DNA of 64,000 nt from Helianthus annuus (taxonomy: Eukaryota; Streptophyta; Magnoliopsida; Asterales; Asteraceae), in the NCBI RefSeq assembly GCF_002127325.2, contig NC_035433.2, forward strand, positions 13,426,111 through 13,490,110. The letters run 5' to 3'. Positions 1,701-64,000 of the stretch are shown here, in pieces (positions within the stretch are counted from its first letter, which is position 1; each line of letters starts with the position of its first letter). The notes beneath the pieces were generated by a model that saw nothing but the letters and a program-made list of their open reading frames with translations, did no database searches and was not told where the DNA came from. The position numbers and the translations under genes are program-made.

Positions 1701-3353
1701 TGTCACACCCTGGCTTTGCGGAAGCGTGGTTAATTTGGTGTGACTTCTTAATACCATAGCTTAATCATAACAAAGCTATATGAAAATAAAACCATGCAAG
1801 ATCATCCATTGATTTGAGTTTCAAAATAAAAGTACCACAACATTGTTTTTAAAGTACCGACACATGCAACTGAAATTTACATCCTAATAACATAAAGCAT
1901 TGTTCAGAACTCATAACCACAAACATAAAGCAGACGTAGTTTTAGAGCGGTGGCTCGTCCAGGCAAGAACCACGACCCCTAAACTTGGATGACCTTATTT
2001 CTTTTACGCAGCGTGAAAACGTATCATACCATGCCAGATCCTTAATTACCTGAAATACATGTAAGTTGGAAAAATAAACAAAAATTGTTGAGCAAGTTCA
2101 TGTGTAACTGAGTAAGTAAAACCTTTGTATAAAATCCTGGTATGTAGCAAATAAGGAAACAGAGATCACCAATGGTTTGCAAGGCCATTGATATGTGTGA
2201 AGTGCAAGTAGGAAGGCTCAAACCTAGCAGATTTATGCGTTGGGTACAAAGTCACCCCGAGGTCCGTTATGTTGGGCCTGGGGTTGGGCTCGCTACACCC
2301 AGATAGATCTACCGCTCCTGCCCTCAGTCCTATCCTGAGGATTAATGACCTCAAGTTTCCGCCTACCCATTCACATGATCTAAATAATAACCCTCCTTAC
2401 GCTAACCATACCATGTAAGAAATATTTGTAATCATAGTAACATGTATTTCACCCCCGCAGTTAGAAAACTAAAAACAGTTAAGAGAAAAAAGGGGATATG
2501 AACTCACAGTGGTGCGTCTCTACCAAGTATATCTCCTGATCAAGCAGCGGTGCGACGACCTACACGTACTAATTCTATTAGACGGACGGCCGTGCCTTAG
2601 CTTTATGGTTTAAGTTTTTGGGAAATAGTTAGACAACTATTTCGTGTTTATATTCAGTATATACTTGGTGATTATTTTTCCTTCCCAAGGATGGGGGATT
2701 TAATACATGTGTGTTCGTATAGCTTCGGAATATATTATTAAGTCTCACTTAATATATATTTTACTTCTTATTCAAAAATATAAATATTCTTCCCAAAAAT
2801 ATTATATTTTAATACATATGATTTTCCCAAAATAATACCTTGACAAAAATACGCGTTCATAAATATTTCCTTAAATGCGTAAGTTACGTTTTTAAAGTTC
2901 GAGTGGTAATAATAATTACCGGTGTAACTTAAATAACTATTGCGAAGGCGTTTTTATTATTTTGGAGTCGTTAACAAGGTAATATTATTTTTACCCTAAA
3001 AATAATATTTGTATATTTCACAAAATAATCATAAACACATAACAAGTGACGTTATGAAAAATATATACTAAATATATATTTACCAAATTTTATTTTGTGA
3101 AATCCCACCTCCGATATTTTGTAAATAAAGTCGTGGCGAAATCTATAATTCGAAAACAAGTCTAAAATGTATTTCTAACACTTGTAGTGAAAATATTTTC
3201 TAAGTGTTAGGTTTTTGGAAAAATTTCGCCAGAGTTTCCTCTGTAACTGGAGGTGGCCACGCTTTCAAGCGTATCATTTTCTTTTATAAATCAAACCAAC
3301 AATTTTCTTATTCAATCAAAACAATATCCAAAGCATCAAACTAGTCAATAAAG

Positions 3354-4712
3354 GGTTTTTCTGGCAGGAGCATTAACATTGATGGCAATCCTTTAGCTCC
3401 GAGACGTGGGGTTATCAGGAACAATGATCAGGAGCCGAGACCGATTAATGTTATTGATGTGCTTGAGAAGATTACTGTTCCAATCCAGCTTCAGAGTAGT
3501 ATTGATCAGATTCTTGATGATAAGCCGGAGAATAGCAACAAATCAGGGTCGTATGCTGATATGGTGAAGCAAAAGACATCTCCGAAGCGGGAAGTTAACT
3601 TCAGGAAGCTAGAAGGGTCGGAGAAGGTTCAAGATGCGGATGTAGTTATTCCTCGCGAGGTAATTAGAAAAGCTCAGGAAAAACTTGACAATGTTTTGTT
3701 TGGTTATTTCTTGGGGAATAGGCTTCCTTTTCCGGTAGTGGATTATTATGCAAAGAATGCCTGGTCAAAATTTGGTTTTGTTAAAGCGATGATGAACTCT
3801 ACTGACTTCTTTTTCTTTAAATTCGAATCAAAGGAGGGTATGGCTAAGGTTCTTGAAGGGGGGCTGTGGCTGATTAGGAAGGTGCCTTTGTTTCTAAATG
3901 TCTGGTCTCCATCTATAAGCCTTAAAAAAGAGGGTATTAAATCGGTTCCGGTGTGGGTTAAGTTACATAATGTACCGATAGCTGTTTACACGGATGATGG
4001 GCTCAGCTTACTAGCGTCCAAGATAGGAGTTCCAAAGAGATTAGATAGTTATACTGCGGACATGTGTGCTGAGAACTGGGGGAGGAGCAGTTTTGCCAGG
4101 GCTCTAATTGAACTCAATGCGGAGTATGAGATAAAGGATCATATCACTATTGCTATTCCGAAACTTGATGAGGAGGGTTATTTAATGGAAAGAGTGGATG
4201 TGGAATATGAATGGAAACCATTACGGTGCTCTTTGTGTTGTGTATTCGGACATAATGACCAAAACTGTAGTAAGAATGTTCAGAGCAAAAAGAACCAGGT
4301 GGTTGTTGATGATGAGGGTTTTATTTCGGACAAGAGGAAGACGATTAGATTGAAGCCAGTGCAGAAAAACCAAAAGCCGAAAATTATCTACAAGCCTAAG
4401 ATAAACAAAACAGGGCCGAGTACTTCAGGTACAAAAGATGATTTGCTGAATAATGACAAAGCTAGTAACGTTAGTACAAAGAATTCATTTGAGGCGCTTT
4501 CAAAGAATGATGGAGATGCGGATGTGTTAGATCCTGATGACGGGTTAGAAACAAGACCGGTTATGAATAATGCTAGCGGGAGCCAAGTGCACATTGATGA
4601 TGAGGTTGTGGATTCGATTCCTACTGAAATGTCTAAGTTTATGAGGAATGATAACAGGAAAGATAAATCTGAGGGGGCAAGCACTCCCGGTCTAGATAGT
4701 TTGAATGGATAG
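3354..4712 (+). pseudogene. L1 ORF1 protein, N-terminally truncated (DUF4283, CCHC)
   Basis: The frame is open from the 5' truncation point, so the Met at 3459 is internal. The encoded protein contains the DUF4283 RNA-binding region characteristic of plant L1 ORF1 (around FGYFLGNRLPFPVVDYYAKN and VPVWVKLHNVPIAVYTDDGL). A zinc knuckle, C-x2-C-x4-H-x4-C in CSLCCVFGHNDQNC, and a polar, acidic C-terminus follow. About 80 N-terminal residues are missing compared with L5 ORF1. The stop codon overlaps the ORF2 start as ATGGATAG. The protein would coat LINE RNA. No internal stop is visible in the retained part, but without its own start it is probably not expressed. Confidence 0.85.
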
Positions 4713-7582: not shown

Positions 7583-8264
7583 GCCGTAATTATCGGAGTT
7601 TCAAACCCTAGTTTTCTCTCTCTCTAATGGAGAAAATCGACCCTCTTGCTTCCTTGACCTAAAATTCATTTTTCTTGATGATTATAGGGATTGTTTTGTG
7701 TGATTAGAGTCTCATCAATTCTGATTTACACTTACGATTCAATATAGTCATTCTTTGATTCGTTTTTGTTCAAGATTAGGGTTCGTTTTTCATTTTTTCT
7801 ACACTTGGCTGCCGTGGTTGTTTGATTTCGTTGTTAATCTGGATTGGGTATACAAAGAGAGATTGTGTTTGCTGCATTTACAATCTGATTCATCTTTTCT
7901 TGATCGATTTTGTACGTGACGGCTGCTAGGGTTTTTCAGGCTTCTTTTGTTTGAAATAGGGTTGGCGGCTAGGGTTTTTCAGGCTTTTCACATAATTGTT
8001 GGCCGACATCTCTAAGGGATTAGTTTCATACGTTCGTGATCAGATTAGGGGCTGAAGTAAGGAGTGGACTCTGGAAGTGCGGCAGCCTTGGTTTAGGGTT
8101 TCATTGCAGCTTTAAACTAGGGTTTATTCGTATTCAATACACTTCTGATTGCAACACACTTCGCTTTTTCAGCTTGACGGCGGTTAGGGTTCTGATTCGG
8201 TGTTTGTCACAGCTGCCTTTTGCTGAATTTCTGTTGACGGCGATTAGGGTTTGTCAATATTGTA
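7583..8264 (+). promoter_or_regulatory. L2 5' UTR/internal promoter region with telo-boxes
   Basis: The leader carries about eight TAGGGTT/AAACCCTA telo-box-like motifs (near 7604, 7769, 7928, 7957, 7970, 8091, 8118, 8188 and 8243). Several lie in a recurring context resembling GACGGCGRTTAGGGTTT. Telo-boxes are known promoter elements of plant ribosomal-protein and other growth-related genes. LINEs need an internal promoter in this region, so I infer a promoter role. The 5' leaders of L3, L4 and L5 are also rich in this motif. Confidence 0.5.
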
Positions 8265-9749
8265 ATGGATGATCTTAATTGTTCTGGTGGAAACCAACAA
8301 GATATTCGTGGGAAGCCGCGATTATCGTTTGAAGAAATTGCTGCACGGTTTCTTGATGTTGATGGGAACACTTTGCAGCCAAAGCGTGGTGTAACGATTG
8401 GAACACAAAGTGACACTAAGTCTTCAAATATCATTGATGATCTCACCAAGGCCACAGTTCCAGTTCGTTTGGAAAAACGGGATGTTGATAAGTCTGACAA
8501 TTTTTGGGATTACCCTAGCAAGTTTTCGCCAAAATCAGATCTTCTTGGTGCATCTTTTTCGGCTGACAACAGGGCTGCTCACGGTAAAGCACGTACTTCG
8601 GGAACTGCAAGTCCTGTCTCATTCGCTCACATTGTAAAGAATACAAAGGAGAAGGTTAAAGTGAATTTTCGGGCGATGGAATCTGCTGAGAAAGTTGATG
8701 GGGCTGATGTTGTTATTCCATTGTCGTCGGTTCAACAAGTTACTGATAGGTATGCTAACACTTTGTTTGGATATTTTCTGGGTAAACGGTTGGCATTTCC
8801 TGTGGTCGATTACTTTGCAAAAAACAACTGGGCGAAATATGGTCTTTCCCGTCTCATGATGAATGCAAACGGGTTCTTTTTCTTTAAGTTTACTTCTAAG
8901 GAAGGGATGATTCAAATGCTAGAGGATGGGCCTTGGTTAATCAGAAGTGTTCCCATAATTTTGAAGGAGTGGTCGTCCTCTATAAAGATGGAAAAAGAGG
9001 ATATTAATGTGGTTCCAGTTTGGGTCAAGATGCATGATGTGCCGTTAGCGGCATTTACTGAGGATGGGCTTAGCTTGGTTGCCTCTATGATTGGGACACC
9101 TAAGATGTTGGATACGTATACTGCCTCGATGTGTGCTGAATCTTGGGGAAGGAGCAGCTATGCTAGAGCGCTTATTGAAGTGCAAGCGGGGGCTGAATTA
9201 AAAAAGAGTGTTACTGTTGCTATCCCATCTATGGATGGTAGTGGGTATTCAAAGGTGGAGGTCAAGATTGAATATGATTGGGAGCCTCTTAGGTGCTCCT
9301 CTTGTTGTGTATTTGGCCATGATGACAGCTCGTGCCCGAAGAACCCTCAGGTAACTCCAAGTGGGGATGCTGAAAATGATGATTTTCAGGTTGTAGAGGG
9401 CAAGAAGAAGAAAGTGAACAACCAAGGCATCCATATGAAAAATCAAAAGCCTAAGTTAGTGTACAGGCCAGTTGCCAACCCTAAACCAAAATCGTCCTCA
9501 AAGATTCCGATGCAGAATCAGGTTTCAACGTCTAACCCGTTTGACATTCTAAAGGATGATACTGGTAATCAGGGAGGTATCACGGTGGGTCGAGTTGAGA
9601 AGAAACCGTCGAATGACAGGCAGGAATCGGATGAGGAAGAGGTTGAAGAAGTCTACAATGAAACTAGTGCATTTATGACATCGGGTACTCATCCTTTTTC
9701 TTCGAAAGCAGGGGCAAGCACCTCTTCTACCAAGTTCTCTAATGGATAG
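8265..9749 (+). CDS. L2 ORF1 protein, intact (DUF4283, CCHC knuckle)
   Basis: The 494-residue frame is uninterrupted. The N-terminus (MDDLNCSGGNQQDIRG) is shared with L3 and L4. DUF4283 spans roughly residues 150-320 (FGYFLGKRLAFPVVDYFAKN, VPVWVKMHDVPLAAFTEDGL). A C-x2-C-x4-H-x4-C knuckle follows near residue 345 in CSSCCVFGHDDSSC. A basic stretch (KKKKV) and an acidic tail with SDEEEVEEVYNETSAFM complete it. It resembles L1 and L5 ORF1 but forms a separate subgroup with L3 and L4. The predicted role is RNA binding and formation of the LINE ribonucleoprotein. The stop overlaps a downstream ATG as ATGGATAG. Confidence 0.9.
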   Translation: MDDLNCSGGNQQDIRGKPRLSFEEIAARFLDVDGNTLQPKRGVTIGTQSDTKSSNIIDDLTKATVPVRLEKRDVDKSDNFWDYPSKFSPKSDLLGASFSADNRAAHGKARTSGTASPVSFAHIVKNTKEKVKVNFRAMESAEKVDGADVVIPLSSVQQVTDRYANTLFGYFLGKRLAFPVVDYFAKNNWAKYGLSRLMMNANGFFFFKFTSKEGMIQMLEDGPWLIRSVPIILKEWSSSIKMEKEDINVVPVWVKMHDVPLAAFTEDGLSLVASMIGTPKMLDTYTASMCAESWGRSSYARALIEVQAGAELKKSVTVAIPSMDGSGYSKVEVKIEYDWEPLRCSSCCVFGHDDSSCPKNPQVTPSGDAENDDFQVVEGKKKKVNNQGIHMKNQKPKLVYRPVANPKPKSSSKIPMQNQVSTSNPFDILKDDTGNQGGITVGRVEKKPSNDRQESDEEEVEEVYNETSAFMTSGTHPFSSKAGASTSSTKFSNG

Positions 9750-27698: not shown

Positions 27699-29538
27699 TG
27701 TAACACCCCAACCCGGAAGGGCTGACGTGTCACAATAACGGTAGCATAACAAAAGTCATAATTCCATTTATTTATTTGATAAGGATACAACCATACGACT
27801 ATTAAAATTTATACACAAGCGGAGATATTCATCTTAATTAACTTAATATCTTCAGATTTATTCCTATGCTTTATTCTTCTCTCTTTTCCCCTCCCAAAGT
27901 AACTTGTGGACCTGTATGTACAAAAAGTTTACGGAATGAGCCGAATGCTCAGTACGGAATTATAGGCTCAAATAACAAATAAATGCTTCATATGAAATCT
28001 TATCCGGATGGAACTTTAGGCGAAAATGATACGATGCAAGAACAAAATTTCATAATCATATCTTACGGATGTACCCATGAGCAAACTTAAAACGTGACAA
28101 TACACAGGTAGCTACTCCTGTATATTTATCACATGAGATGGCGAATTGGCATACCCGTTATCCACCTCCTTATACTTATACTTAAACTCTAGGATCGATC
28201 CATACGCCTCCTAATAGCTTTATGTACCACACTTGTACTTAAGAGACGCCGTGAACTAATCTCTCCGTCACGGATGGAGCACATGATGTTGATGCCACAA
28301 CAACATGCTCGTGGGACACTCCACGAGAAGCGATACTCAGGGTATCAGAGTACAAATGGTCTTATTCACATAACTTATAAAACTTATTTTCATAACAAAA
28401 CGGAACATATATCGGAACATGCGATAATGAGTGTAACAACATAATACTATCGCATGACATGAAAACTAAATCAATTGATAGGAATTGAACGGACTGTCAA
28501 ATGAATCGATAATCAAAGATGTGAGGAGTAATTTAGTGGTTTTATAACAATTTGAATATGAAGCAATAAAGAGTGGGGTAAGGATCCGTACCTTAATAAC
28601 TCCAAAGTGAAGCTACCTTATGCTAATATTTTAGATTTATATGGGCAGAGTTTAGATTACTGATTAATCTTTTAACCTAATTTCACAATAATGCACACAA
28701 AACAGAGTTAGTGATCAATACAACGATTACGATAATTCCCCGAGATCAATTTGGACAATGAATGTCCAAGTGCAATACTTCGGCTCATTTATCAAAATGA
28801 CAAACGATAAAGTACAGTACTTCGGCTCGTATATCGAATCATCGACAACGATAAAGTACACTGCTTCGGCTCAGTCATCGGATTACCGATGATAGATGAA
28901 GCATAACCCAAATATGGGCAGCACTTAGATATTCTTTGGGATATATTGATTCCGGACAATGAATCGTAATAGCGATCGAGTAATTACCCTGATTGCGGCA
29001 GCACCTCGATAATAGTGTGTGTGTTAATTGAAGTAAAACGACGATAACTCTGTGTATATTGTGAGTTTTTCCGTCGATTTTGTGCCAGAAATCAAGTCCC
29101 AGACTCCTCTATTTATACCCGAATTTTGACACCGTCGCGTAGCGCGAGGGGTATCACTTGTAGGCGTCGCGCTACGCTATTGGTAATTTATGTTAGGCGA
29201 AATTTGTCCCTGTCGCGTAGCGTGAGGGGTAACCCCTATACGTGTCGCGCTACGCGAGTGGTAACCTATTTTCTATAGGTAGCTTCGTGTCTAAGTAGCT
29301 TAGCTGAGTTGATAAAATTGTAAAATTCAAAACGGCCAGCAAGTTATTTAGATAATCGTAACTAGGGTTTTGTCCCCCCTGAGTTTTAGGGGCCCTGATC
29401 CTGAGTCTGATTGTTCTAAAAATTTTTAGGGTTCATGCCAATTTACTTGGGTGTCTCATTTAGGGTTTCCTTAATAAATAATTACTATTATTCTTTTTAT
29501 TTCTATAAAAAAATGATTTTAAATTTATGGGCATTACA
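27699..29538 (-). repeat. G1 5' LTR
   Basis: This copy is 1,840 bp at an offset of 7,019 from the 3' LTR. Every line compared by eye is identical. Its TATAAATA at 29110-29117 is the likely active promoter. Confidence 0.95.
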
Positions 29539-29611
29539 TAAGTTGACGAACCTCTCTTTGTTTCAGGGGAAGGTTCAATCCCCTTATATTCCATACACCA
29601 ATACTACCCGT
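29539..29611 (-). pseudogene. L5 ORF2 first codons, start codon changed to ACG
   Basis: This 73-bp piece holds the ORF2 start separated by G1. It overlaps the ORF1 stop as in L1, but the expected ATGGATAG reads ACGGGTAG. The first sense codons give GSIGVWNIRGLNLPLKQREV, which joins in frame to the piece ending at 20679. Without ATG, translation would need a non-AUG start or another mechanism. Confidence 0.75.
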
Positions 29612-31262
29612 GGACACCAGGTTGACCGGGAGTGCTTGCCCCCTCAGATTTTTTGTTACTAGTACCAGCACACATAAACTCTGATATTTCCGTTTGAAGA
29701 TCATCAATAACCCCATCATCCTCGTTAGGAACTCGTATCGGCTCATTTTCATAGCTCAGGTCCACATAGGGAGCTCCCTCCAGAGAATTGTCACTAGAAA
29801 GCGCAGCAAACGAATTCTGGGTCTTAATACTACTTTTATTGTGACCATTACCTCCATTACCATGCTTACTCTTACCATTCTTGTTCAAAAATTCATCATC
29901 TTTTTTCGTTCCAGACGAACTGGCACCCGACGAACCATTACCACCCGACAAGCCATTACCACCCGACGAACCATTACCACCCGCCGAATCATTACCACCA
30001 TTAGCAGCCGTACTCGTGGCAGCCCTAGGAATAGAAGATTTTTGCCTATAGACAAATCTGGCCTTTTGCTTCTTTTGTGGAAATCCATGTTTAGCCGTTT
30101 TCCTTTTATCAGTCACAAAACCATCCTGGTCAATAGATACTTTTTTGGACATCTCCGGTTCTACCTTCGGACAAGACGAACCATCATGGCCAAAAAGACA
30201 ACATTCAGCACATCTTTTAGGTCTCCATTCGTATTCAACCTTGATTTCCTCCATAACATAACCCTCTTCAACCAATTTGGGAACAGCTACCACTATATGA
30301 TCTTTCAACTCCTTATCCGCTGAAATCTCAATCATAGCACGAGCGAAACTCGTCCTCCCCCAATTATCAATACACATATCAGCAGTGTAATTATCTAACC
30401 TCTTCGGGGTCCCAATCTTCGAAGCCAAAAGACTCAGGCCATCATCAGTGTAAACAGCAATAGGAACGTTATGAAACTTAACCCAAACAGGGACCGATTT
30501 GATTCCATCCTTCCTAAGTGTAACAGCCGGGGTCCATACGTTGAGAAATAACGGAACTTTCCGAATGAGCCAAGGACCACCTTCAAGGACCTTATTCATT
30601 CCTTCAGTCGAATCAAACTTAAAAAAGAAGAACCCGTTGGAGTTCATCATAGCCTTAGAGAATCCATACTTGTTCCATACATTTTTAGCATAATACTCTA
30701 CCACCGGGAATGGAAGTCTACTTCCCAAAAAATAACCATACAAGACATTTTCAAACCTATCCTGCACTTTCTGAACCGCTTCTTTTGGGATGACAACGTC
30801 AGCATTCTCCATCACCTCGTGGGCCTCAATCAACCTAAAGTTCACCACCCTTTTAACTCCACCCGAAGACTGAAGCTTATCAGCATAGGATACCGGCTTA
30901 GTCACATTCTCACTTGAACAATTAGTGTTAGCAACCGGATTCTGCACTGGCACAGTCACCTTCTCCAATTCATTGATAATGTTAATTACCCTTTGCTCAT
31001 TCCGTACCATACCGCGTCTAGGCAACATCGGGTTTCCATCAATATTCAGAGGTTTCGCAAACAATGGAGTATTATCTTTCAAATCCTGAACAGTCAACGG
31101 CTTCGAGCTAATAAATACGTCCCCATACATTTTTTCAGAAAAAGACTTAAACCCTAAATCTTCCATTGTATTATCTCTGCTAGGGTTTCCCACACCACTA
31201 CTCGTGACAGGTAATGGCGGGTTACCCCTATCATCTTTGGGCAAATTATCACTCGGATTCAT
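29604..31262 (-). CDS. L5 ORF1 protein, intact (DUF4283, CCHC knuckle)
   Basis: The 552-residue frame starts MNPSDNLPKDDRGN and has no internal stop. A variable N-terminal third comes first. DUF4283 follows at roughly 180-345 (YGYFLGSRLPFPVVEYYAKN, VPVWVKFHNVPIAVYTDDGL), then a C-x2-C-x4-H-x4-C knuckle (CAECCLFGHDGSSC). A Gly/Ser/Asn-rich low-complexity stretch (repeats of SGGNG) and an acidic tail ending ASTPGQPGVHG complete it. The role is binding and packaging LINE RNA. The Gly-rich repeat is unique to this copy among the five ORF1 proteins here and could promote condensation; that is inference. Confidence 0.92.
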   Translation of the reverse strand: MNPSDNLPKDDRGNPPLPVTSSGVGNPSRDNTMEDLGFKSFSEKMYGDVFISSKPLTVQDLKDNTPLFAKPLNIDGNPMLPRRGMVRNEQRVINIINELEKVTVPVQNPVANTNCSSENVTKPVSYADKLQSSGGVKRVVNFRLIEAHEVMENADVVIPKEAVQKVQDRFENVLYGYFLGSRLPFPVVEYYAKNVWNKYGFSKAMMNSNGFFFFKFDSTEGMNKVLEGGPWLIRKVPLFLNVWTPAVTLRKDGIKSVPVWVKFHNVPIAVYTDDGLSLLASKIGTPKRLDNYTADMCIDNWGRTSFARAMIEISADKELKDHIVVAVPKLVEEGYVMEEIKVEYEWRPKRCAECCLFGHDGSSCPKVEPEMSKKVSIDQDGFVTDKRKTAKHGFPQKKQKARFVYRQKSSIPRAATSTAANGGNDSAGGNGSSGGNGLSGGNGSSGASSSGTKKDDEFLNKNGKSKHGNGGNGHNKSSIKTQNSFAALSSDNSLEGAPYVDLSYENEPIRVPNEDDGVIDDLQTEISEFMCAGTSNKKSEGASTPGQPGVHG

Positions 31263-31708
31263 AAAGGAACTTTAGCAGCAACTATCTCCACGGTTATCTA
31301 AAGCATGCAACGTAAACGAATAGCAAAACCCTAATAGCCGACAAGAACCAATACCTGAGAAAATCACACACACCCGAACTTGATGAATAACTAGTAGCAA
31401 TACAGCAAACCCTAATCCGCCACCACTCCAAACCATGCAACGAATTCAAAGCAAGAAAACCCGAGCAAGTTGGCAGTAAACCCTAGCAATAAAAACGAAA
31501 CGAAACAAACCCTAAACCTGATTTCAAAAGATTAGAAACCACGGTAGAAGTCTAGAAACCTTACTCAGAAGGATCGACAACACCACAATTGCTAACCCAG
31601 ATCAATCAAGAATAAGATCAGATGAACAAGAAGCTAGGGTTTCTCAGTAGTCGCCAAAATCGCCCAGAGCCAGTCTCCTTCTTCTACTGTAACGAACAAG
31701 TTTATTCG
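31263..31708 (-). promoter_or_regulatory. L5 5' UTR with telo-boxes
   Basis: The complete 5' leader extends up to the TSD. AAACCCTA-type motifs recur (near 31325, 31409, 31482, 31509 and 31634). I infer an internal promoter. Confidence 0.5.
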
Positions 31709-34682: not shown

Positions 34683-34757
34683 TCAACCACCATCATCAAA
34701 AATAAAGTGGCCACAAACCCGCAGCCCCTTCAGACGAAAAGCAGACAATCTATCCAT
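34683..34757 (-). CDS. 25-codon ORF2-start stub in L3
   Basis: Same length and position as in L2 and L4, overlapping the ORF1 stop as ATGGATAG. It reads MDRLSAFRLKGLRVCG then continues to FDDGG and TGA. Compared with L2, two of the differences are synonymous (AGG/AGA, CTG/TTG), and the CTG-TTT pair differs. Confidence 0.5.
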   Translation of the reverse strand: MDRLSAFRLKGLRVCGHFIFDDGG

Positions 34758-36264
34758 TCGAGAACTTGGAAGAAGAGGTGCTTGCCCCTGCTTTTGAAGA
34801 AAAAGGATGAGTACCCGATGTCATAAATGCACTAGTTTCGTTGTAGACTTCTTCGACCTCCTCCTCATCCGATTCCTGCTCGTCCCTCGAAGGTTTCTTC
34901 TCAACCCGACCCACGGTGGTACCTCCCTGATTACCAGCCACTTGACCCACCATGGTACCATTACCATCGTCATCTTTAAGACTATCAAAGGGGTTCGACG
35001 TTGAAACCTGATTCGAATTTTTCACAGCCGAATTCGGTTTAGGTTTGACAACCGGACGATAGACTACCTTAGGTTTTTGATTTTTTATATGAAGCCCTTG
35101 AGTAGTAGCTTTCTTCTTTTTAGCACCCACAACCTGAAAATCATCACCCTTTTTTCCATAATCCCCATTCGGAACAACCTGAGGGTTCTTAGGGCACGAA
35201 CTATCATCATGACCAAAAACGCAGCAATACGAACACCTTAAAGGCTCCCAATCATATTCAATTTTGACTTCCACCTTAGAATAACCATTACCATCTAAAG
35301 ATGGAATGGCAACAGTGACACTTCTTTTTAATTCAGCCCCCGCCTGCACTTCAATAAGAGCTCTAGCGTAACTACTTCTTCCCCAAGATTCAGCACACAT
35401 CGTAGCAGAATACGTATCCAACATCTTAGGCACCCCTATCTTTGATGCAATCAAACTAAGACCATCCTCGGTATAAGCTGTTAGCGGCACATCGTACATC
35501 TTTACCCACACCGGAATAGCTTTAAGATCCTCTTTTTCAAGTTTGATAGAGGCCGACCACATCTTCAAGATAATCGGAACATTTCTTATCATCCATGGCC
35601 CATCCTCTAACATTTTATCCATCCCTTCCTTAGTTTTAAACTTAAAGAAGAAGAAGCCATTCGCATTCATCATCAATCTATCCAGACCATACTTAACCTA
35701 ATTGTTCTTAGCAAAGTAATCCACCACCGGAAACGCTAGCCGTTTACCCAAGAAATACCCATAGAGAGTGTTTGCATACCTGTCCGTGACTTGCTTAACC
35801 GAAGCCAACGGAATAACAACATCAGCTCCATCGACAACCTCAGAAGACTCCATCTCCCTAAAGTTCACCGGCACCTTCTCCTTCGAGTTCTTTACTGCAT
35901 TTGCAAATGATACCGGTTCCGTCGTCGCTGAAGGTTGCAAATTCCCATGACCTGCCAAAGCAGCCGCATTGAATTCCAATCTTTGCGCATATCTCTTGGT
36001 AGCTTGCTTAATCCCTTCCCAATCCGAAACCCTAGTTGCTGACCGCAGGTTTTCAGCTTCAAATGGAACTGAATTCTTAACCAATTCATCAATTATGTTA
36101 ACATTACGAGATTCAGTTTGAGCCGAGAGATCGTCTATGATTTTAAACCTTGCTGCAATTTCTTCAAACGTTGCCCTCGGTGTCGCATGAAGATCCTGTT
36201 GTTTTCCACCAGAACCACTAACATCATCCATCCCAAAGTTGGCAAAACTAGGATTATCGATCAA
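34750..36264 (-). pseudogene. L3 ORF1, one Trp-to-stop change
   Basis: The frame starts at 36264 (MIDNPSFANFGMDDVSGSGG), slightly upstream of the start used in L2. It carries DUF4283 (YGYFLGKRLAFPVVDYFAKN), a CCHC knuckle (CSYCCVFGHDDSSC) and the SDEEEVEEVYNETSAFM tail. A single TAG at 35698-35700 replaces the Trp that follows FAKNN in L2 and L4 and splits it into two frames. All else is open, so this copy was disabled by one transition. Confidence 0.88.
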
Positions 36265-40273: not shown

Positions 40274-41282
40274 TCTAAAAGAGAAACAAGAAAGAAAACA
40301 AATGAAATGACATTCGGTAAGAATAGGACGTTACAATAACCATAATCATGGTTGATGGTCATTTGTTTGAACCACGAAGCGAACAAATGGGACAACTCGG
40401 ACTTTAGACTTGCTTTGATGTAACGTTACGTGCTTATGAGAACTGAATTATATGGTTTTGAATGAATGTTTGTTTATGTGCTTTACGTGTGTATGTATGT
40501 TATGTGTTGCACGAGCCCAAACTACACACTAAAACCCGATTGCATTGATTATAACCGGTCACACAAGCCCTTTGGGCCACACCTTGTTCACGGACCCTTA
40601 GAAGTAACCGGATGGGCTCGGCCCACTTCCCCACTCGCAACACAAAACCGAGTTTAAGGGTTTTGTTTTATTGCTTTTGAAAAACACAAACACACACACC
40701 AAACTCTCTCCCTCTCTCTTGGAATCGCCTCTCTCTCGGAACCGGAGACCACACCCTTGAAGTTCTCGGCTCCATCTTTTGTTTTACATCTCGGTTAGCA
40801 TCAACCTCTTGATTACGTGTTTATATGTTCTGTTAGTAATCGGATTTACATAATTATTGTGATAATCGGATATATGAATGTATGATGGATCGGCTAGTAT
40901 GTATTGTTTAATCGGTTATGTTGATATGATTCCTGAATGCGTGATCTAGCCTAGTCGGATGTGATACTTGTAATCGGTCATGTGCTTACGTTAAATTGAA
41001 ATTGCCTGTTTAAAAACCGAATGAACATATATGATCGGCTGTTTAGTATTGTTAAAAATCGGATTAATTGATTTACCCCGGCTATATGGTTGTATGAATG
41101 GTTATGATTCTGCTCATATGATAAGATGTGTGTTTTTGAATATTACATGAACAGTTTGAATGTGGTTGAATTAGGAATTGTAACTGATTTGATCTATTTC
41201 TGAAACTATTGATTTTGTTTGCTGAAATCACGGATTAGTTGTTATGGTTATTTAAGGAATTCAGGAAATCAGTTACACGCGT

Positions 41283-41600
41283 GATTGCGACTTGGATTGC
41301 GAGTCGAAACCCACAGTCTCGACTCGAGACCACACAGCAACATCAGCCGAAACCATGATTGCGAGTCTTGTTGCGACTCGTAACCAGGGCATGACAAGTC
41401 GAGACCAAAGGTTGCGAGTCCTGTTACGACTCGTAACCGGACCTTGCCAAGTCGCAATCTCACACAAACATTACGGACCGAAACCACGGTTGCGAGTCCC
41501 ATGACAACTCGAGACCGGCCCCGTTGCGACTCGAGAACACCACAGTTACGAGTCCCGTTGCGACTCGGGATCTCCTCGTTGCGACTCGAGACGGGCCATG
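41283..41600 (+). repeat. GCGAGTC/GACTCGC repeat array in S
   Basis: At least four imperfect repeats combine CGAGTC, about seven bases, and GACTCG, which can form short hairpins (near 41371, 41421, 41491 and 41551). Further single copies of GACTCGAGAC occur between them. The content is high in CpG relative to the rest of the LTR. Confidence 0.65.
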
Positions 41601-41942
41601 TTATTGGACTTTTACTATTACAGGCCCAACTGCTTTGGGCCGGATACTTGGCTATTTGTTTAACTGTTTGTTTTGGGTTGCTATTGGAATACGTGTACAT
41701 TGCCATGATCAATATGTGTTAGTAACCTACGTGCTTTATACGAACCTGACTTGTATAATAACCATGATAGGGCGTGGTTGACCATTTACTAGCTTAACTA
41801 TACTCTTTGTGTATCTGCCGAGCAAACCAAGGTGAGTTCACACAGCCAAGGCATGGGATTCCCGGGTTGGGAATTGGGTTGGATATGTTGATATTGAAAG
41901 AGTTACTCGTACTTACGCATTCTCTAGACTATATAGACCATC

Positions 41943-42339
41943 GTCCTCAGGTTAGTCAGGACACGTTACGTAAAGCCTACGTAACCCAGTATTTTCCATC
42001 TGTCTCCCGGGTCGGGAGGACACGTTACGTAAAGCCTACGTAACCCAATACCTTCTACTGTCTTCCGGGTCGGAAGGACACGCTGCGTAAAGCCTGCGTA
42101 GCCCCCACGCGTACCATGTCCTCGGGGAAGGGCACGTCACGTAAAGCCTACGTGACCCTGTACGTTTTCCTGTTCTCGGTAAAGAAGAACACATGGTCGG
42201 AAGTTAGTCTAGTAAGTACCGTTAATGAGAAGCCCTCATTAGCCAGGATAAACATGGGAAGCCCCCACCAGTATTATGAACACAAGGTTTGGGAAGCCCC
42301 CACCTTTAGTACACACTAGTCTGGGAAACCCCCACTAGT
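41943..42339 (+). repeat. Array of hairpins with invariant AAGCC loop in S
   Basis: Four tandem units each contain a first hairpin, the two bases AC, and a second hairpin with loop AAGCC. The second hairpins are at 41965-41985, 42024-42044, 42082-42102 and 42136-42156. Their stem arms are GTTACGTA/TACGTAAC twice, GCTGCGTA/TGCGTAGC and GTCACGTA/TACGTGAC. The first hairpins include CTCCC/GGGAG (42004-42018) and CTTCC/GGAAG (42062-42076), both with loop GGGTC. Further hairpins with loop AAGCC or AAACC follow at 42223-42241, 42255-42267, about 42284-42306 and about 42315-42339. Stem differences are compensatory or G-U wobble on the plus strand. Confidence 0.8.
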
Positions 42340-43175
42340 TAAACATGCACACTACACTATGAACTTACTGTGAACTCGCTCAACTAGTTTGTTGATTATT
42401 TGCTGCATGCCTTGCAGGACCTTAGGTATACTTGGAGCTTGCACCAAAGGAGAAGCGGGTCCTTGTGGACAAGGAAACGTGAATGTTTATTAAACGCTTT
42501 TATATTCACACATTGATACTTGTGTTTTGGGTTTTACATTTAATGCTTCCGCTACACATACAACGTTTGGTTTTGAACATCAGTCGTATCTACTATTATT
42601 ATTAAATGCTATGTTTGATATGATTGATGGCTTGATCCTGGTCAGTCACGCCTCCAAGCGGTGGTACTCCGCGTGTGGGATTTTGGGGGTGTGACAACAA
42701 ACAACACAAAGGCTGAATCAAAGCAAATAGATCCTCATAGTGTGTCGCGAAGACATGCTCGCCTATAAGTGGACACTCACCCCAAGAGTTCCCAGGTAAG
42801 AGTGACTGGTCCGATTATGTGGATTTGTACGAACACTCTCGCCTTAGACAGAAAACCCAGGGTACAGGCATTCACTCTTCCAGTTTGCACGTGTTCACAC
42901 TATTTAGGACCCCAAAACTTTGACGAGAGTTTTGAAAATTCAAAGGGGTTCAAAACCTTATAACAGAGGGTTCAAAACCTAGTAATCAATCATCCTAGAA
43001 CAGATGATTAGTTTTCAAAGCGGTTTTGAAATTTATGTTCTTGTTGTGGTCGTCGTCTAAGGATAGGTGACGGTATTGTTTTATGACTAAACACAAGTAA
43101 ACTCGCGTTAGGGTCCTAGGAAGGTTATAGACTAGGTCAAAGAATTACTAATAACCTAATTCCCTATAACCATTG

Positions 43176-44335: not shown

Positions 44336-45329
44336 CGATGTAATGTAAATCATGTACTATAAATGTACTAATGAACATAGCAAGTATATGATGTGAAAAC
44401 ATGAAAGCATGAAAGTAACAAGTAGGCACATGTGTTTCACCCCAAAACAGTTTGGAAAACAGTAAAAGAGGGGTCTATGTACTCACTTGAGATTGCTTAG
44501 TAGTCCTTGAGTAACAACCAAACAGTGCTAGAGATCACGGATATCAAACGGCACCTAATATAGGTAACTATGTTAATATACCGGACCTAAATCGGAGGAT
44601 TGGATAGAATGAGGGTTTGTAAACCAAACGAGTATGGGAACTCATGTAATATGGTTTAACAAAGCCCACGTACTAAAATGAAACCTAACCTAAGTGCTTA
44701 CGACCCATTACGACCCGTTTAGGTAGCTTATGCTACTTTAACATGTCGTTCGCGTAAAACGCGTTCGGAACGCCTAACTAGTCCTATGGTAAGTAAAATA
44801 TGCCTTAACATGTCTAATACTGTTACCAAATCAGTTTAGATGTCAAAAGTTATGTTACATATGCTTAATATGAATTTTGGCGTAAAAAGGGCATTTTGGT
44901 AATTTACCTAAGGCATATAAACCACCTATCATACAACTACTTAAACGATGTGACCATAAGGTATAACCTCGTAAGGTTCTTCCCTATACAACTATGGTCA
45001 CCTAATGTGTTTGATCGGATCCTAATGATCGACCAAACGGGTAGGGTTCGAAAGTATAAGCGATTGTTTAGACCGCTTATCTTACGACCCTATATAAGCA
45101 CTAAACTAAAAGTGACGAGCTAAGCATGTTAAAACATGCTTAACTAGGTTTAGAAAACAGGTTTGGTATCAAAACAAACGGTTTTGACACCCAATAGTAG
45201 TTTGGTTACAAAATACACGAGAATACGTATTTTGGCCGAAAATACGGCTCGTCACTGAGCCTAGATAATGTGGTAATCAGTAGGTATAGTCACTAGGGAC
45301 TATAACCATCGTGATCACGCTCACGTTAT

Positions 45330-45398
45330 GAAGTTCGAACGAACTTCGCATTGACCATAAACTGGTCAATGCAGAAAGTCAAACATAGTTTGACTTTC
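45330..45398 (-). repeat. Three back-to-back perfect hairpins in A's LTR
   Basis: GAAGTTCG/CGAACTTC with a 2-base loop (45330-45347) is followed directly by GCATTGACC/GGTCAATGC with a 7-base loop (45348-45372). One base later comes GAAAGTCAAAC/GTTTGACTTTC with a 3-base loop (45374-45398). They lie about 150-220 bases downstream of the TATA box in the sense direction, so they would be in the transcript leader. B's 3' LTR has counterparts at 52657-52724. Confidence 0.85.
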
Positions 45399-45548
45399 GG
45401 ACACGAAAAGCGATAAAAGAACGAAGGAACACTTACAACGGGTCCCCGCAAGCTAATCTCGATCCAAATAGCTCAGGTATGAAGCAAGGGAATCAACTTA
45501 GAGCTCTTTAGATCAGATTTTGTGAGGAAGAATGAAATGGATGGTGGG

Positions 45549-45556: not shown

Positions 45557-45645
45557 GGAAATGGACCACCGTTAGGATCGTTTCTTGAATATCGTGCTTT
45601 GATCTTGTCCATACACTTGTTGAAACCTTATGGTAACATCAAAAT

Positions 45646-45951
45646 GGCCCCTCATGAGCATGAAAGGGCAAGCGTAAATTGGCCCCTCATTATCCTGAAG
45701 AGACATGTGCAAATTGGCCCCTCATTATCCTGAAGAGGCAAGTGCAAATTGGCCCCTCATTATCCTGAAGAGGCAAGTGTAAATTGGCCCCTCATTATCC
45801 TGAAGAGGCAAGTGCAAATTGGCCCCTCATTATCCTGAAGAGGCAAGTGCAAATTGGCCCCTCATTATCCTGAAGAGGCAAGTGCAAATTGGCCCCTCAT
45901 TATCCTGAAGAGGCAAGTGCAAATTGGCCCCTCATTATCCTGAAGAGGCAA
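45646..45951 (-). repeat. 35-bp tandem array upstream of A's TATA box
   Basis: Nine copies of a 35-bp unit beginning GGCCCCTCATTATCCTGAAG (starts 45646, 45681, 45716, 45751, 45786, 45821, 45856, 45891 and 45926). The inner copies are nearly identical. I find no such array in B's 3' LTR, so it expanded in A's lineage. Confidence 0.9.
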
Positions 45952-51418: not shown

Positions 51419-54400
51419 TGTGACACCTGGGTCACTGAGACCATCAAACAAATACCAAGCCAATGAAATATTGTATTTCATACTTGGGTTCTGTATAAAA
51501 ATGTGTATCTTTTGCACATATCAACTCTTGTTCGATTTCAAGCTCTAAATCGCTTTCTAGAAGGTTATACACGCGCTGCTGCGTAAATATAACCAGTTTA
51601 ATGCAACAAACACTCCGGAATAGTGAAATAGGCTTAACATACCTTAAATAACCTTTACATAACTTAGAAATAAGTTTTGAAGGCTTCCGTATGGCAAAAT
51701 CAAGTTAAATCGCTTACAGGGACTAAACTTGACAAACTGCGAAAGTATGACAATTTGAACTGTAACGAACATTCCGGAACATGACCATAAGTTAAACACA
51801 CCTTAAATATCCCTTATATAGCTTAGAAATAGGCTTTGAGGGGTTCGGTGTGCTAAAGTAAACTTTTGGATCATTCAGGGACTAAAAGTGTCAAAAAGCG
51901 CATAAGTTTGCACTTTCGCGCATAACTTACGTTCTGAATACATTCGGACATCCAAAAATTTATGTAAGCATCATAATATTATGCCTTAGTGTTTGGCATG
52001 AGAAAAATCCACTCGTCGCATCATTTGGATCGTTTTTCGCGCTTATGCGCATTCCGTCGTAATTAACCGAACATCGCGATCGTACGGCCAAACGAACCAA
52101 CATCCGGCATATTTTTGAGCATGTTTCATGTCCTCAATGTTTAAGCATCATTTTAGGGCCTTAAAGATGGCTTAACAGGCCTTAAACATGTCGGAAACGG
52201 CCCCAAACCACATCAGGGACCTAAACTGTCATTTCTGAAAGTTGGTTGCAGATCAGAACTCCCAGGCCGCCCGCGTAAGCCCAGGGTGAACTCTTACATG
52301 GACCGCGTCAGCCTCTCAGACCAGATTCAATGTTTTTAATCAACTTGCAACACCCTTTCGATCACCCAAAGGGCAACGCCACTTGTCAAATCCCTATGGT
52401 GGGGGCAAAATAAGCCACCACAACATTTCGACAAGTGTACGGGTGAGATCGAGGCACGATATTCAAGAAACGATCCTAACGGTCTTGCATATCCTATAAA
52501 TACCCCCCCCCCCCCCATTTTGGTGTAAAACCCACAAATCTGATCAAAGAGCTCTAAGTTGATGCCATTGCTTCATACCTGAGCTCCTGGATCAAGATTA
52601 GCTTTCGGGGACCCTTCGTAAGTGTTCTTTCGTTCTTTTATTCGCTTTTCGAGTCCGAAAGTCAAGCTTTGTTTGACTTTCTGCATTGACCAGTTTATGG
52701 TCAACACGAAGTTCGTTTGAACTTCATAACGTGAGCGTGATCACGATGGTTATAGTCCATAGTGACTACACCTACTGATTACCACGTTATCTAGGCTCAG
52801 TGACGAGTCGTAGTTTCGGCCAAAATGCGCGTTCTTGCGTATTTTGTAACCAAACTACTCATAGGGTAAACTTAGTTAAGCATGTTCTAACATGCTTAGC
52901 TCGTCACTTTTAGTATAGTGCTTATATAGGGTCGTAAGGTAAGCGATCTAAACAATCGCTTATACTTTCGAACCCGACCCATTTGGTCGATCTTTAGGAT
53001 CCGACCAAACACATTAGGTGACCATAGTTGTATAGGGAATAACCTTCCAAGGTTATACCTTATGGTCACGACGTTAGGCGTTCCAAGCGCGTTTTACGCG
53101 AACGACGCGTTAAGGTAGCATAAGCTACCAAAACGGGTCGTAATGGGTCGTAAGCACTTAGGTTAAGTTTCATTTTTAGTATGTGGGCTTTGTTAAACCA
53201 TATTACACGAGTCTCCATACTCGTTTGGTTTACGAACCCGCATCCTATCCAATCCTCCGATTTAGGTCCGGTATATTAACATAGTTACCTATATTAGGTG
53301 CCGTTTGATATCCGTGATCTCTAACATTATTTGGTTGTTATACAAGGACTTCAAAGCAATCTCAAGTGAGTACATAGACCCCTCTTTTACTGTTTTCCAA
53401 AATGTTTTGGGGTGAAACACAAGTGCCTACTTGTTACTTTCATGCTTTCCTGTTTTCACATCATATACTTGCTATGTTCATTAGTACATTTATAGTACAT
53501 GATTTCATTACATTTTAGGCTATGTATGCCCATTGTGTGCATACTTAGTACATCACTTTACAATACATTTCATGCTATGTACGCTCATTGTGTGCATACT
53601 TAGTACATTGTTTTACATTACACTTATGCTATGTACGCCCATTGTGTGCATACTTAGTACATTGTTTTACATTGCATTTCTGTTGCATATGCTCATCCAG
53701 CATATGAACACATTATACTACATTTTGAACCGTTGTAACCATTTGACTATCTGAACCGTCTAAACCCTTCGATTATATGAACCGTTTGTAACTATTGAAC
53801 CGTGTGAACCAGTTGTATCTGTTGACATGATTTACATTTGTTAATAGACATTTGACTATACATAAACATTTCTACAATTGTTAAACATTTCATCTTGATG
53901 GTTTGGTTTGAGTAAGTGATCTAAGTAACGAGGCGTGTGTAATATGATACAAGCATGGTGGATACGCCGCTGGTACTTCCTATACATAAGTGTTTGTATG
54001 GTATTACATATCGTAGCGTTATTTGAATCATTTCAATTTGAGACATATAACATTTTATACAAATAACATACTTTTCACAAGACATTGATTTACAAACAAC
54101 TTATCTTATACAAACTCATTTTACATGGTTATTCATTTAACCATACGTTATTCTCTTATTTATTCATATCATCTGATCTTATCGTTTTTCAAATGACTTA
54201 CAAGACAAAGCAAATTACAAGGTTCATGACTAAACATTTTCTCAAACATAAGTCATGAATTCTGTTTTCACAAAACCTATGTATCTCACAGGCATTTTTA
54301 TGCTGACGTACCTATTTTCACATGTGTTTTCAGGAGATGATGCATAGGACTTATCAAGACATACTTAGGCGGACCTGTGCCTTAGTGACTTAAAACGAGA

Positions 54401-57183: not shown

Positions 57184-57258
57184 TCAACCACCATCATCAA
57201 AGATAAAGTAGCCACAAAATAGCAGCCCCTTCAGACGAAAAGCAGACAGCCTATCCAT
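57184..57258 (-). CDS. 25-codon ORF2-start stub in L4
   Basis: Same start overlap (ATGGATAG), same length and same end (FDDGG, TGA) as in L2 and L3. Relative to L2 it differs by CTG/CTA and ATT/ATC (both silent) and by CAT/TAC (His/Tyr). Confidence 0.5.
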   Translation of the reverse strand: MDRLSAFRLKGLLFCGYFIFDDGG

Positions 57259-58711
57259 TAGAGACCTTGGTAGAAGAGGTGCTTGCCCCTGCTTTCGAAG
57301 AGAAAGGATGAGTACCCGATGTCATAAATTTACTAGTTTCAGTGTAGACTTCTTCAACCACCTCCTCATCCGATTCCTGCCTGTCACCCGACGGTTTCTT
57401 CTCCACTCGTCCCACAGTGGTACCTCCCTGATTACCATTATCATCCTTCAGAATATCAAACGGGTTAGACGTTGAAACCTGATTCTGCATCGGACTCTTT
57501 GAGGACGATTTTGGTTTAGGGTTGACAACTGGCCTGTAAACTACCTTTGGCTTCTGATTCTTGATATGAAGACCTTGGTTATTAGCTTTTTTCTTCTTGG
57601 CACCCACAACCTGAAAGTCATCATTTTTCACTCCAGAATCCCCATTCGAACCAACCTGAGGGTTTTTTGGGCACGAGTTATCTTCATGACCAAAAACACA
57701 GCAAGAAGAGCATCTTAAAGGCTCCCAATCATATTCAATTTTTACCTCCACCTTAGAATGATCACCACCATCTAAAGATGGGATTGCAACAGTAACACTC
57801 TTCTTTAAATCAGTCCCCGCCTGCACTTCAATGAGAGCTCTTGCATAGCTGCTTCTTCCCCAAGACTCAGCACACATTGTGGCCGTATACGAGTCCAACA
57901 TCTTAGGAACCCCTATCTTAGAGGCGACCAAGCTAAGACCATCCTCAGTAAATGCCGCTAACGGCACATCATGCATCTTGACCCAAACTGGAACAACTTT
58001 GATATCCTCCTTCTCCATCTTAATAGAAGCTGACCACTCTTTCAAAATTATCGGAACATTTCTTATCAACCAAGGGCCATCCTCTAACATCTGATCCATC
58101 CCTTTTTTAGTCTTGAACTTGAAGAAAAAGAACCCATTTGCATTCATCATTAATCTAGATAACCCATATTTAACCCAGTTGTTCTTTGCAAAGAAATCCA
58201 CCACAGGGAACGCCAATCGTTTTCCCAGAAAGTACCCATACAAAGTATTAGCATACCTGTCTGTGACTTGTTTAACCGATGTCAATGGAATCACTACATC
58301 TGCTCCATCAACAACTTCACTAGATTCCATTGCCCTGAAGTTCACCTTAATGTTTTCCTTAGTGTTCTTCACTACATTAGCAAAGGAGATAGGATTCGCA
58401 ATTCCGGCCGATTTATCCAAGCCCTGATCAGCCACCGATTTCGCTTTATCCAAACCTGAAATTGGCGTGTATCCCATACCCGGAGAATCCCAGAAATTTG
58501 TATCCAGATTTCCTAGTCGGACAGGAGCCGAACCCATAAAACTTTCGTCAATGCTGCTTGTACTTTTAGTTTCATTCAACAGGATTCCACGTCTCGGCTT
58601 GAGGGTGTTCCCATCAACATCAATAACCCGATTCGCCAAATCCTGAAACGACAATGAAGGCTTACTGTGGACATCTTGTGGTTTTCCACCAGATTTCACT
58701 CGATCCTCCAT
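57251..58711 (-). CDS. L4 ORF1 protein, intact (DUF4283, CCHC knuckle)
   Basis: The 486-residue frame starts MEDRVKSGGKPQDVHSKPSL. DUF4283 spans about 140-310 (YGYFLGKRLAFPVVDFFAKN, VPVWVKMHDVPLAAFTEDGL). The knuckle is CSSCCVFGHEDNSC. A basic segment (KKKKANNQGLHIKNQKPKVV) and an acidic tail (SDEEVVEEVYTETSKFM) follow. It is close to L2 throughout, with differences spread over the protein, and no stops. An RNA-binding LINE structural protein without an accompanying enzyme. Confidence 0.9.
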   Translation of the reverse strand: MEDRVKSGGKPQDVHSKPSLSFQDLANRVIDVDGNTLKPRRGILLNETKSTSSIDESFMGSAPVRLGNLDTNFWDSPGMGYTPISGLDKAKSVADQGLDKSAGIANPISFANVVKNTKENIKVNFRAMESSEVVDGADVVIPLTSVKQVTDRYANTLYGYFLGKRLAFPVVDFFAKNNWVKYGLSRLMMNANGFFFFKFKTKKGMDQMLEDGPWLIRNVPIILKEWSASIKMEKEDIKVVPVWVKMHDVPLAAFTEDGLSLVASKIGVPKMLDSYTATMCAESWGRSSYARALIEVQAGTDLKKSVTVAIPSLDGGDHSKVEVKIEYDWEPLRCSSCCVFGHEDNSCPKNPQVGSNGDSGVKNDDFQVVGAKKKKANNQGLHIKNQKPKVVYRPVVNPKPKSSSKSPMQNQVSTSNPFDILKDDNGNQGGTTVGRVEKKPSGDRQESDEEVVEEVYTETSKFMTSGTHPFSSKAGASTSSTKVSNG

Positions 58712-59115
58712 TCTGTGAATACCAACTCTCTTTCAACCCTACGAAACAAGCAATAGTACGCAGACACACAAGCAAACTCGGCCAGCCAAACCCAACGAAC
58801 AAAGAACATAAACAAACCCTAAACTAGCTTTAACCCTAACCCATGAATCTTACAAATCAGAAAGAAGTATTGAAAAATCAAAGACGACTAACCAACAATT
58901 CAATCCAATATGCTCGAAAACTGAAGTTGAGTGCGGCGATTATAAAGAATCAGAAACCCTAGCCGACAAATCAAAAATCCGCAAAGACAGATTACGAATT
59001 AGAAGTTAGAACCCCTAATCGCCGATCTGATCTTGACAAGATCTTAACAAATCACGAAGACAGACCTAGGGTTTCGAAGGAATCAGAAGTCGCCATAGCT
59101 AGAGAGAGAATTAAC
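58712..59115 (-). promoter_or_regulatory. L4 5' UTR with telo-boxes
   Basis: AAACCCTAA/TTAACCCTAAC motifs near 58815-58840, and AAACCCTAGCCG and CCTAGGGTTTCG nearer the 5' end, mirror the leaders of L2, L3 and L5. The element's 5' limit is uncertain. Confidence 0.45.
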
Positions 59116-63054: not shown

Positions 63055-63057
63055 AAC

Positions 63058-64000
63058 TGTCACACCCCCAAAATACCACATGCGAAAACCCCCGCGGGGC
63101 GTGTGACGTACCAGGAGCCAAGCCACCAATCACATTGAACTCATAAATATATTTAAATAAAACTTTCATTCATTAACATAAAGGGTTACAAACATTACAT
63201 ATCATTCATTGTGTACAGCGGAAGCAAAACTCATTTGTTAAGTGTTTAGTAAACCATGTGTACATTAATCATTTAGCTTGTGTTGAGATTCCATGTATCA
63301 CGACCCATGACCACTCCAGCATCCCAGACAGCAATTCCCAATGATACAAACCTACAACCTGCAAGCATGCAGACAAGTGTGTCAGACGACGCTGGTGAGT
63401 TCAAAGTTTTGTTACCGAGTTTAGTTACCAGATATATGTATGAAACAGTTTAACGACTTGATTCGATGTTGTTATTAACTCGATTATCGTATGTGGCGAC
63501 TAGATGTGAATGCCCAACCCCCAATGCCTCCATTTAGGCATTGGTCATGAGGTCAAGGTATCAAACAACCTTGAATAGATGTAAGGGGTCTTATATGTAC
63601 ACGATGTGAATGCCCAACCCCAATGCCTCTAACTAGGCATTGGTCATGAGGTCCAGGTAATTAGTTCACGCCCGTCCTTTCGGCCCGGTGTGAGGGTGCC
63701 AAACCTAATAGCGCTATCAACTAAATACCTCGTTGCTTCTTCAGCAACACGGTAGATGTATGGGGTCTTACATGATTTATACTGTGTTCAATAACCAACA
63801 TCCCAAATAAACAGTTTACCCAGTATTCCCTTTAGAAATGTGTACCAGATGTCCCAAACCACCGGGACGCATGCTTAGAAAAGTGCAGTGAACTCACCTT
63901 GGTTTGCTCGGTATGATTAGTTACTTGTTCACACTTAGTTAATCGAAGCCTATGGTGTTCATGTACACGTAATCAGTTTACATTCGCATGACTCGCGTAT
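63058..64000 (-). repeat. 5' LTR of element E, cut by the window edge
   Basis: Starts TGTCACACCCCCAAAATACC on the plus strand. It includes two copies of a 100-bp repeat (GATGTGAATGCCCAACCCC at 63503 and 63603). Each holds an AATGCCT/AGGCATT hairpin with a different 6-base loop (63523-63542, 63622-63641). A further hairpin, GTTGCT/AGCAAC with a 5-base loop, is at 63732-63748. Confidence 0.8.

Follow-up and report, generated by a model that had tools for sequence, protein, structure and literature searches.

Packaging hairpins are known from retroviruses, and RNA viruses use multivalent packaging hairpins with a common loop; how plant long terminal repeat (LTR) retrotransposons select their own RNA for packaging and balance spliced against genomic RNA is, to our knowledge, poorly understood. 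Clustered, hairpin-forming palindromes occur in a cis-region of the LTRs of plant Sireviruses (Ty1/copia) (PMC2829016, PMC10760457). In these reports, the TATA box is preceded by the repeated palindromic motifs (PMC2829016), each element has a single well-kept palindrome, in the 3′ LTR, and the palindromes of maize Sireviruses are linked with small RNAs (PMC10760457, citing Bousios 2016). Several small hairpins in LTR-derived RNA are also represented by the leader and R-region stem-loops of retroviruses (accessible part of PMC3601003), and structured RNA encoded in plant LTRs by the hammerhead ribozymes of retrozymes (accessible part of PMC9695139).

We analysed a 64-kb stretch of sunflower DNA (the window), a nest of plant LTR retrotransposons in which a solo LTR, S, carries an array of short hairpins. 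For one ORF of the window (57254–58732), the best database match, at 86% identity, is from Helianthus annuus, and Helianthus accounts for most of the 120 hits listed out of 350, in keeping with a sunflower genome. Hairpin-rich LTR regions being already known, S is distinguished, as far as its letters tell, by a near-constant loop on stems that vary in an apparently compensated manner and by G–U pairs, and in these respects is unlike the Sirevirus palindromes of the accessible reports. It shares several small hairpins with the retroviral stem-loops, but belongs to a plant element; unlike the retrozymes, it lies in a window with no Rfam family at gathering score over the whole length. The same loop on several stems recalls the multivalent packaging hairpins of RNA viruses, a likeness of working principle with no sequence relation. 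The preliminary description knew of no account of the array, and none was found in titles and summaries of a mostly open-access literature; the word 'hairpin' is absent from the available main text of four sunflower LTR papers (PMC11728184, PMC5563062, PMC9784723, and PMC7730604). The lack of an account concerns the array itself; hairpin-forming palindromic LTR regions have been described for Sireviruses.

Architecture and setting of the array in solo LTR S

S has TG...CA ends and a 5-bp target duplication on both sides and is devoid of an internal region; together with the self-BLAST breakpoints, these features uphold the earlier placing of the array in a solo LTR. S was inserted into C1, an older LTR element, within its internal part. 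The features of the LTR as a whole are as follows.

40388..42696, + strand: solo LTR S, 2309 bp, TGGGACAACT...GGTGTGACA; breakpoints by self-BLAST, ends read directly
40383..40387, no strand: target-site duplication ACAAA, left of S, read directly
42697..42701, no strand: target-site duplication ACAAA, right of S, read directly
41280..41600, no strand: separate upstream palindromic array of half-sites that stay constant and occur in either orientation, GACTCG (6) and CGAGTC (5)

The hairpin array, as had been described, contains four tandem units (spacing 59, 58, and 54), in each of which the bases AC join a first hairpin to a second. The second hairpins of units 1–4, starting at 41965, 42024, 42082, and 42136, each have an 8-bp stem and the loop AAGCC. 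A fifth, stretched unit (42172–42243) is additional to the four tandem ones and is followed by short hairpins.

41858..41874, + strand: extra upstream hairpin ATTCCC[GGGTT]GGGAAT, resembling the first hairpins, found by eye
41943..41962, + strand: unit 1 first hairpin, GTCCT/AGGAC
41965..41985, + strand: unit 1 second hairpin, GTTACGTA[AAGCC]TACGTAAC
42002..42021, + strand: unit 2 first hairpin, CTCCC[GGGTC]GGGAG
42024..42044, + strand: unit 2 second hairpin, the same as in unit 1
42060..42079, + strand: unit 3 first hairpin, CTTCC[GGGTC]GGAAG
42082..42102, + strand: unit 3 second hairpin, GCTGCGTA[AAGCC]TGCGTAGC, in which one pair is compensated and two are G–T
42118..42133, + strand: unit 4 first hairpin, GTCCT/AGGGC
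42136..42156, + strand: unit 4 second hairpin, GTCACGTA[AAGCC]TACGTGAC, in which one pair is compensated
42172..42190, + strand: unit 5 first hairpin, GTTCT/AGAAC, then AC
42221..42243, + strand: unit 5 second hairpin, GTTAATGAG[AAGCC]CTCATTAGC, covarying in a Helianthus anomalus copy
42254..42269, + strand: short hairpin TGGG[AAGCC]CCCA (42255–42267) with flanks
42284..42306, + strand: short hairpin TGGG[AAGCC]CCCA, with outer stem AAGG/CCTT past a TT bulge
42315..42339, + strand: short hairpin TGGG[AAACC]CCCA (42322), with outer stem ACTAG/CTAGT past a TC bulge

The loop, previously called invariant, is AAGCC in all four second hairpins of the tandem units and in 7 of the 8 hairpins with this pentaloop, but AAACC in the last (42322). 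Of the first hairpins, those of units 2 and 3 combine the loop GGGTC with the stems CTCCC/GGGAG and CTTCC/GGAAG, respectively, whereas those of units 1 and 4 differ in both stem and loop. The downstream stems had been regarded as unrelated; the outer half of the unit 5 stem resembles the other stems, and hence this one is not simply unrelated. The outer stems beyond a two-base 5′ bulge in the last two hairpins were found as described (AAGG/CCTT and ACTAG/CTAGT). As judged by eye, the CGG–CCG core of Sireviruses is lacking in the second hairpins, and the first hairpins of units 2 and 3 hold CCGGGTCGG, in the reverse order. The block at 41280–41600 looks like a DNA-type palindrome cluster or DNA-binding repeats, its half-sites being constant in contrast to the varying stem letters of the hairpin array; hairpins are in excess in this block too. 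In the remaining parts of S that were tested (40388–41300 and 42420–42696), hairpins with stems of at least 6 bp do not exceed those in shuffles.

The array is flanked by splice-site-like sequences, which are shared with a related LTR, T, at the end of the window.

41818..41841, + strand: 24-mer CCGAGCAAACCAAGGTGAGTTCAC, identical in LTR T, including the splice-donor consensus AAG/GTGAGT
41832..42417, + strand: putative leader intron, GTGAGT ... TTGCAG, around the array, 586 bp, with the same layout in T
41930..41937, + strand: TATA-like TATATAGA, the sole match of its pattern in S
63058..64000, − strand: related 5′ LTR T, running past the window end, with the same 24-mer

On both strands of the 64 kb, the consensus MAG/GTRAGT occurs only at 41829 (+) and 63900 (−), sites that correspond by homology in S and T and lie on the sense strand of each. 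The acceptor ends are TGCATGCTTGCAG/G or TGCATGCCTTGCAG/G in S and T, delimiting putative introns of 586 and 539 bases around the arrays. Both donor and acceptor consensus are conserved between the two relatives compared, and the array may thus be located within a leader intron of S. Some sunflower retrotransposon RNAs have been reported to be spliced (PMC7730604), with no mention of LTR S in the accessible part of that report. A scan with the core pattern of the 24-mer gave no match in viral or in prokaryote contigs, a stem-loop pattern scan of viral contigs gave five single matches, which were taken as chance, and a scan of plasmids gave no match.

A TATA box placing the array at the RNA 5′ end, as a feature of the family, was considered and rejected: all six homologs that cover the site exclude TATATAG, the residues of P0123, P0124, P0125, P0126, P0128, and P0129 at this site, read by hand, fitting CTATAGACC. 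TATA-like words are common (115 on both strands of the window), and T has one (63781) just upstream of its own array. As a separate observation made by eye, donor-like words GTAAGT are located soon after the presumed starts of LTRs A (about 38764, −) and C (45436, −), and perhaps represent leader introns in other families.

Stem changes within S and in other genomic copies

In the second hairpins of units 1–4 all cells pair, two pairs having changed on both sides and two having turned into G–U. The alignment reproduces the replacement of T–A by C–G at position 2 in copy 3 and at position 3 in copy 4, as well as the two G–T pairs in copy 3, as given in the preliminary description. The outer 5-bp stem of the first hairpins pairs in 19 of the 20 cells of units 1–4, unit 2 holding the one mismatch; between units 2 and 3, the first hairpins are compensated. 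If the second hairpin of unit 5 is included, its extra pair being accommodated by a manually placed gap, the five homologous hairpins are paired in 41 of 41 cells, with more than one pair type at 6 of 9 pairs, compared with 6–12 of 22–32 cells in slid controls. The four units alone are weak evidence of covariation, because the observed value was reached in 30 of 500 shuffles of the 3′ letters. If transitions fell at random, a compensated change that leaves every pair intact would have a chance of 0.094 in unit 3, 0.038 in unit 4, 0.048 in the first hairpins (unit 2 compared with unit 3), and 0.063 in unit 5 of H. anomalus; the product of these four chances is about 1e-5 for cases picked post hoc.

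Other genomic copies were read from protein matches, in which the two open reading frames (ORFs) overlapping the array served as probes and the DNA of each copy was deduced by minimum-change codon reading. Units 4–8 are covered by P0121 (H. annuus) and P0122 (H. anomalus), and the upstream part with units 1–3 by P0123–P0129. In unit 5 of P0122, a G–C pair is replaced by A–T on both sides and the adjacent T–G by C–G, according to the codon reading; the same copy gains a G beside the following hairpin, able to pair with the facing C. P0121 shows one change, from C–G to T–G. In unit 3, P0125 and P0126 have T–A where S has T–G, and P0128 has a change of C to T with the partner outside the sequence seen; in unit 1 of P0128 there is a definite broken pair (C–G to A–G). 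Two stem changes in P0125 each face a silent codon position. Covariation in the other copies, as deduced from protein, thus amounts to one clear case, one definite break, and three changes with an invisible partner. The unit 3 wobble of P0128 and that of P0121 are changes of C to T at CpG, which methylation decay explains equally well.

Over 14 segments drawn from P0123, P0125, P0126, P0128, and P0129, changed positions make up 6 of 293 covered positions in stems, 1 of 134 in loops, and 7 of 170 elsewhere, these being rough counts from related copies. P0124 and P0127, which do not cover the hairpins, were excluded, P0121 and P0122 were scored apart, and P0125 was cut around a one-base insertion. 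P0127, from a 573-base contig, contains the conserved block around the 24-mer and then runs into a different repeat; this copy perhaps belongs to another subfamily with another array.

Hairpin excess, folding energy, and the arrays of other LTRs

The array contains nine hairpins with stems of at least 6 bp, compared with a mean of 1.75 in shuffled sequences (nine were reached in 0 of 200 shuffles), and seven hairpins with stems of at least 4 bp have one common five-base loop (maximum of two in 500 shuffles); both shuffle counts overstate the evidence, the tandem copies not being independent. All seven AAGCC words of the array are in hairpin loops. The overall folding energy of the array is only modestly low (z of −2.6 on the plus and −2.4 on the minus strand), and in a sliding fold scan of the window the array was not outstanding. 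The unit 3 hairpin reaches −9.7 kcal/mol on the plus strand and collapses on the minus strand (−1.7 kcal/mol). In the preliminary description, the plus strand was taken as the sense strand because of the wobble pairs; these pairs and the collapse of unit 3 agree with this assignment, but the cases are few, and the energy of the whole array is lower on the minus strand (−145.7 versus −128.0 on the plus strand).

Hairpins are in excess over the whole window as well, 218 having stems of at least 7 bp compared with 122–152 in six shuffles. In stretches of other LTRs that were chosen after their hairpins had been seen, those with stems of at least 6 bp numbered four in T (reached in 0 of 200 shuffles), four in B (3 of 200), eight in C1 (0 of 200), and seven in C2 (0 of 200).

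T is 79% identical to S in the last 80 bp and 100% in the 24-mer, with little else in common in the compared part. Its hairpin array (63748–63521, −) differs in sequence from that of S and occupies the corresponding place, with the stems GTTGCT/AGCAAC, TCAAGGT/ACCTTGA, and, twice, CCAATGCCT/AGGCATTGG. The duplicated hairpin has identical stems and different loops, the reverse of the situation in S. A primer site adjoins T at 63055–63042, which we take to be of the initiator-tRNA type; such a site is common to lineages besides the Ty3 chromoviruses (Tekay-like). A Pfam comparison of six ORF pieces from T found nothing at E 0.1.

In LTR B (28740–28950, −), the TATA box is followed by 44-bp tandem units bearing short hairpins and preceded by GCGTAGCGCGAC-type palindromes. 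In both B and C, TATAAATA sites precede the hairpins. The two copies of C (44950–45400, −; 52655–53070, +) contain dense, near-perfect hairpins that are among the strongest folds in the window; LTR C also has, ahead of its TATA box on the minus strand, a 35-bp tandem repeat of about nine copies (45640–45951).

The two C copies are 87–94% identical in the hairpin part. With the whole fold of one copy as reference, there are 114 unchanged pairs, 14 one-sided changes, 1 two-sided change, 16 broken pairs, and 11 gapped ones; with that of the other, the respective numbers are 141, 12, 1, 24, and 3. The local hairpins show 77 unchanged standard pairs, 2 unchanged G–U, 2 unchanged C–A, 6 other mismatches, 1 double change, and 11 gapped pairs, and no strand bias was found in them (11 one-sided G–U versus 9 C–A). 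Substitutions are rarer at paired than at unpaired positions (32/292 versus 66/392, and 44/359 versus 54/325). The hairpins persist in C but show no strand bias, and C therefore gives no support for selection at the RNA level. Most differences between the C copies may have arisen after insertion.

Readings of the array and its genomic setting

With moderate confidence, we favour the reading that the array forms a sense-strand RNA structure in the transcribed leader of the LTR, most likely in the putative leader intron, with selection on stems and loop; the compensating stems and near-fixed loop suggest that a folded RNA once served the element. The array would be transcribed on the sense strand as part of the leader, and the intron holding it would have to be retained in genomic RNA. 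The repeated short hairpins would then present one pentaloop several times, selection having presumably kept stems and loop while the stem letters drifted. Their most likely job would be multivalent binding of one partner, for which the element's own Gag is our first guess, because the other LTR families of the window bear different arrays, as expected of family-specific partners; a host splicing or translation factor is possible. Packaging, dimerisation, translation, and splicing may be regarded as candidate functions only.

The plus-strand fold of unit 3, far better than that on the minus strand, and the fact that T, B, and the two C copies have hairpin arrays with sequences of their own count for the sense-RNA reading, whereas the kept stem with varying loop in T and the hairpin excess over the whole window count against it. 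The selected RNA structure of the preliminary description finds support short of proof: pairing in 41 of 41 cells, the kept loop, and the compensated pair of H. anomalus agree with it, but the break in P0128, the lack of strand bias in C, and the 30 of 500 shuffles do not.

Alternatively, the palindromes may act as DNA: as inverted repeats in the regulatory part of the LTR, they would be bound by dimeric host transcription factors or would shape chromatin, a role that has been proposed for the repeated motifs of Sireviruses. Repeated palindromic motifs are known in LTRs (accessible parts of PMC2829016 and PMC10760457), S itself has the upstream array of constant half-sites (41280–41600), the stems hold ACGT cores, and the TATA-like site near the array is not kept in homologs, all in keeping with such a role. 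However, pairing and loop persist in the array while the stem letters vary, the G–T pairs of unit 3 break DNA symmetry, and one loop is kept on unlike stems; we consider the DNA-level role unlikely. The hairpins might instead have a functionless, mutational origin: template switching within inverted repeats, in the course of reverse transcription or repair, would have made and corrected them, together with tandem duplication. Tandem duplication is evident, the excess of hairpins extends to several LTRs and across the whole window, and paired changes can be produced in one templated step; such an origin, which we regard as unlikely, leaves unexplained both the wobble pairs and the loop kept in hairpins with unlike stems.

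That the array is a template for hairpin-derived small RNAs, which would help the host to silence the element, is very unlikely in our judgement, since the array stems, at only 8–9 bp, are well below those of the usual small-RNA precursors, which are far longer; the excess of small RNAs at palindrome clusters of maize Sireviruses (accessible part of PMC10760457) is the point in its favour. It is also most improbable that the overlapping ORFs are genes and the repeats coding sequence. The ORFs are annotated as hypothetical proteins in sunflowers, but the units lie in different frames, the two ORFs are split at 42043, and a given unit is read in different frames by homologs; P0122 differs at 6 of 67 residues, silent changes being invisible at the protein level.

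Whatever its role, the array offers a concrete, testable sequence in an element-rich genome: one loop repeated on covarying stems, at a fixed place next to a donor-like site that is conserved. A broader proposal, which we hold only tentatively and think rather doubtful, is that several sunflower LTR families each evolved their own leader hairpin array (in S and T within an LTR-encoded intron) as fast-evolving, family-specific codes that mark genomic RNA for the family's own Gag or keep it unspliced; the constant loop with changing stems in S and the constant stem with changing loop in T would be two such codes. Should several families bear different arrays in this position, the region may serve as a recognition code that evolves rapidly.

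The neighbouring elements B and C look Ty3-type, and a weak chromodomain match was obtained for B in a Pfam scan that took in 7 of the 14 ORFs of at least 200 residues. A DUF4283 domain is present in five ORFs situated among the LTR elements (3345–4712, 8238–9749, 29604–31271, 34750–35697, and 57251–58732), which we take to be non-LTR insertions.
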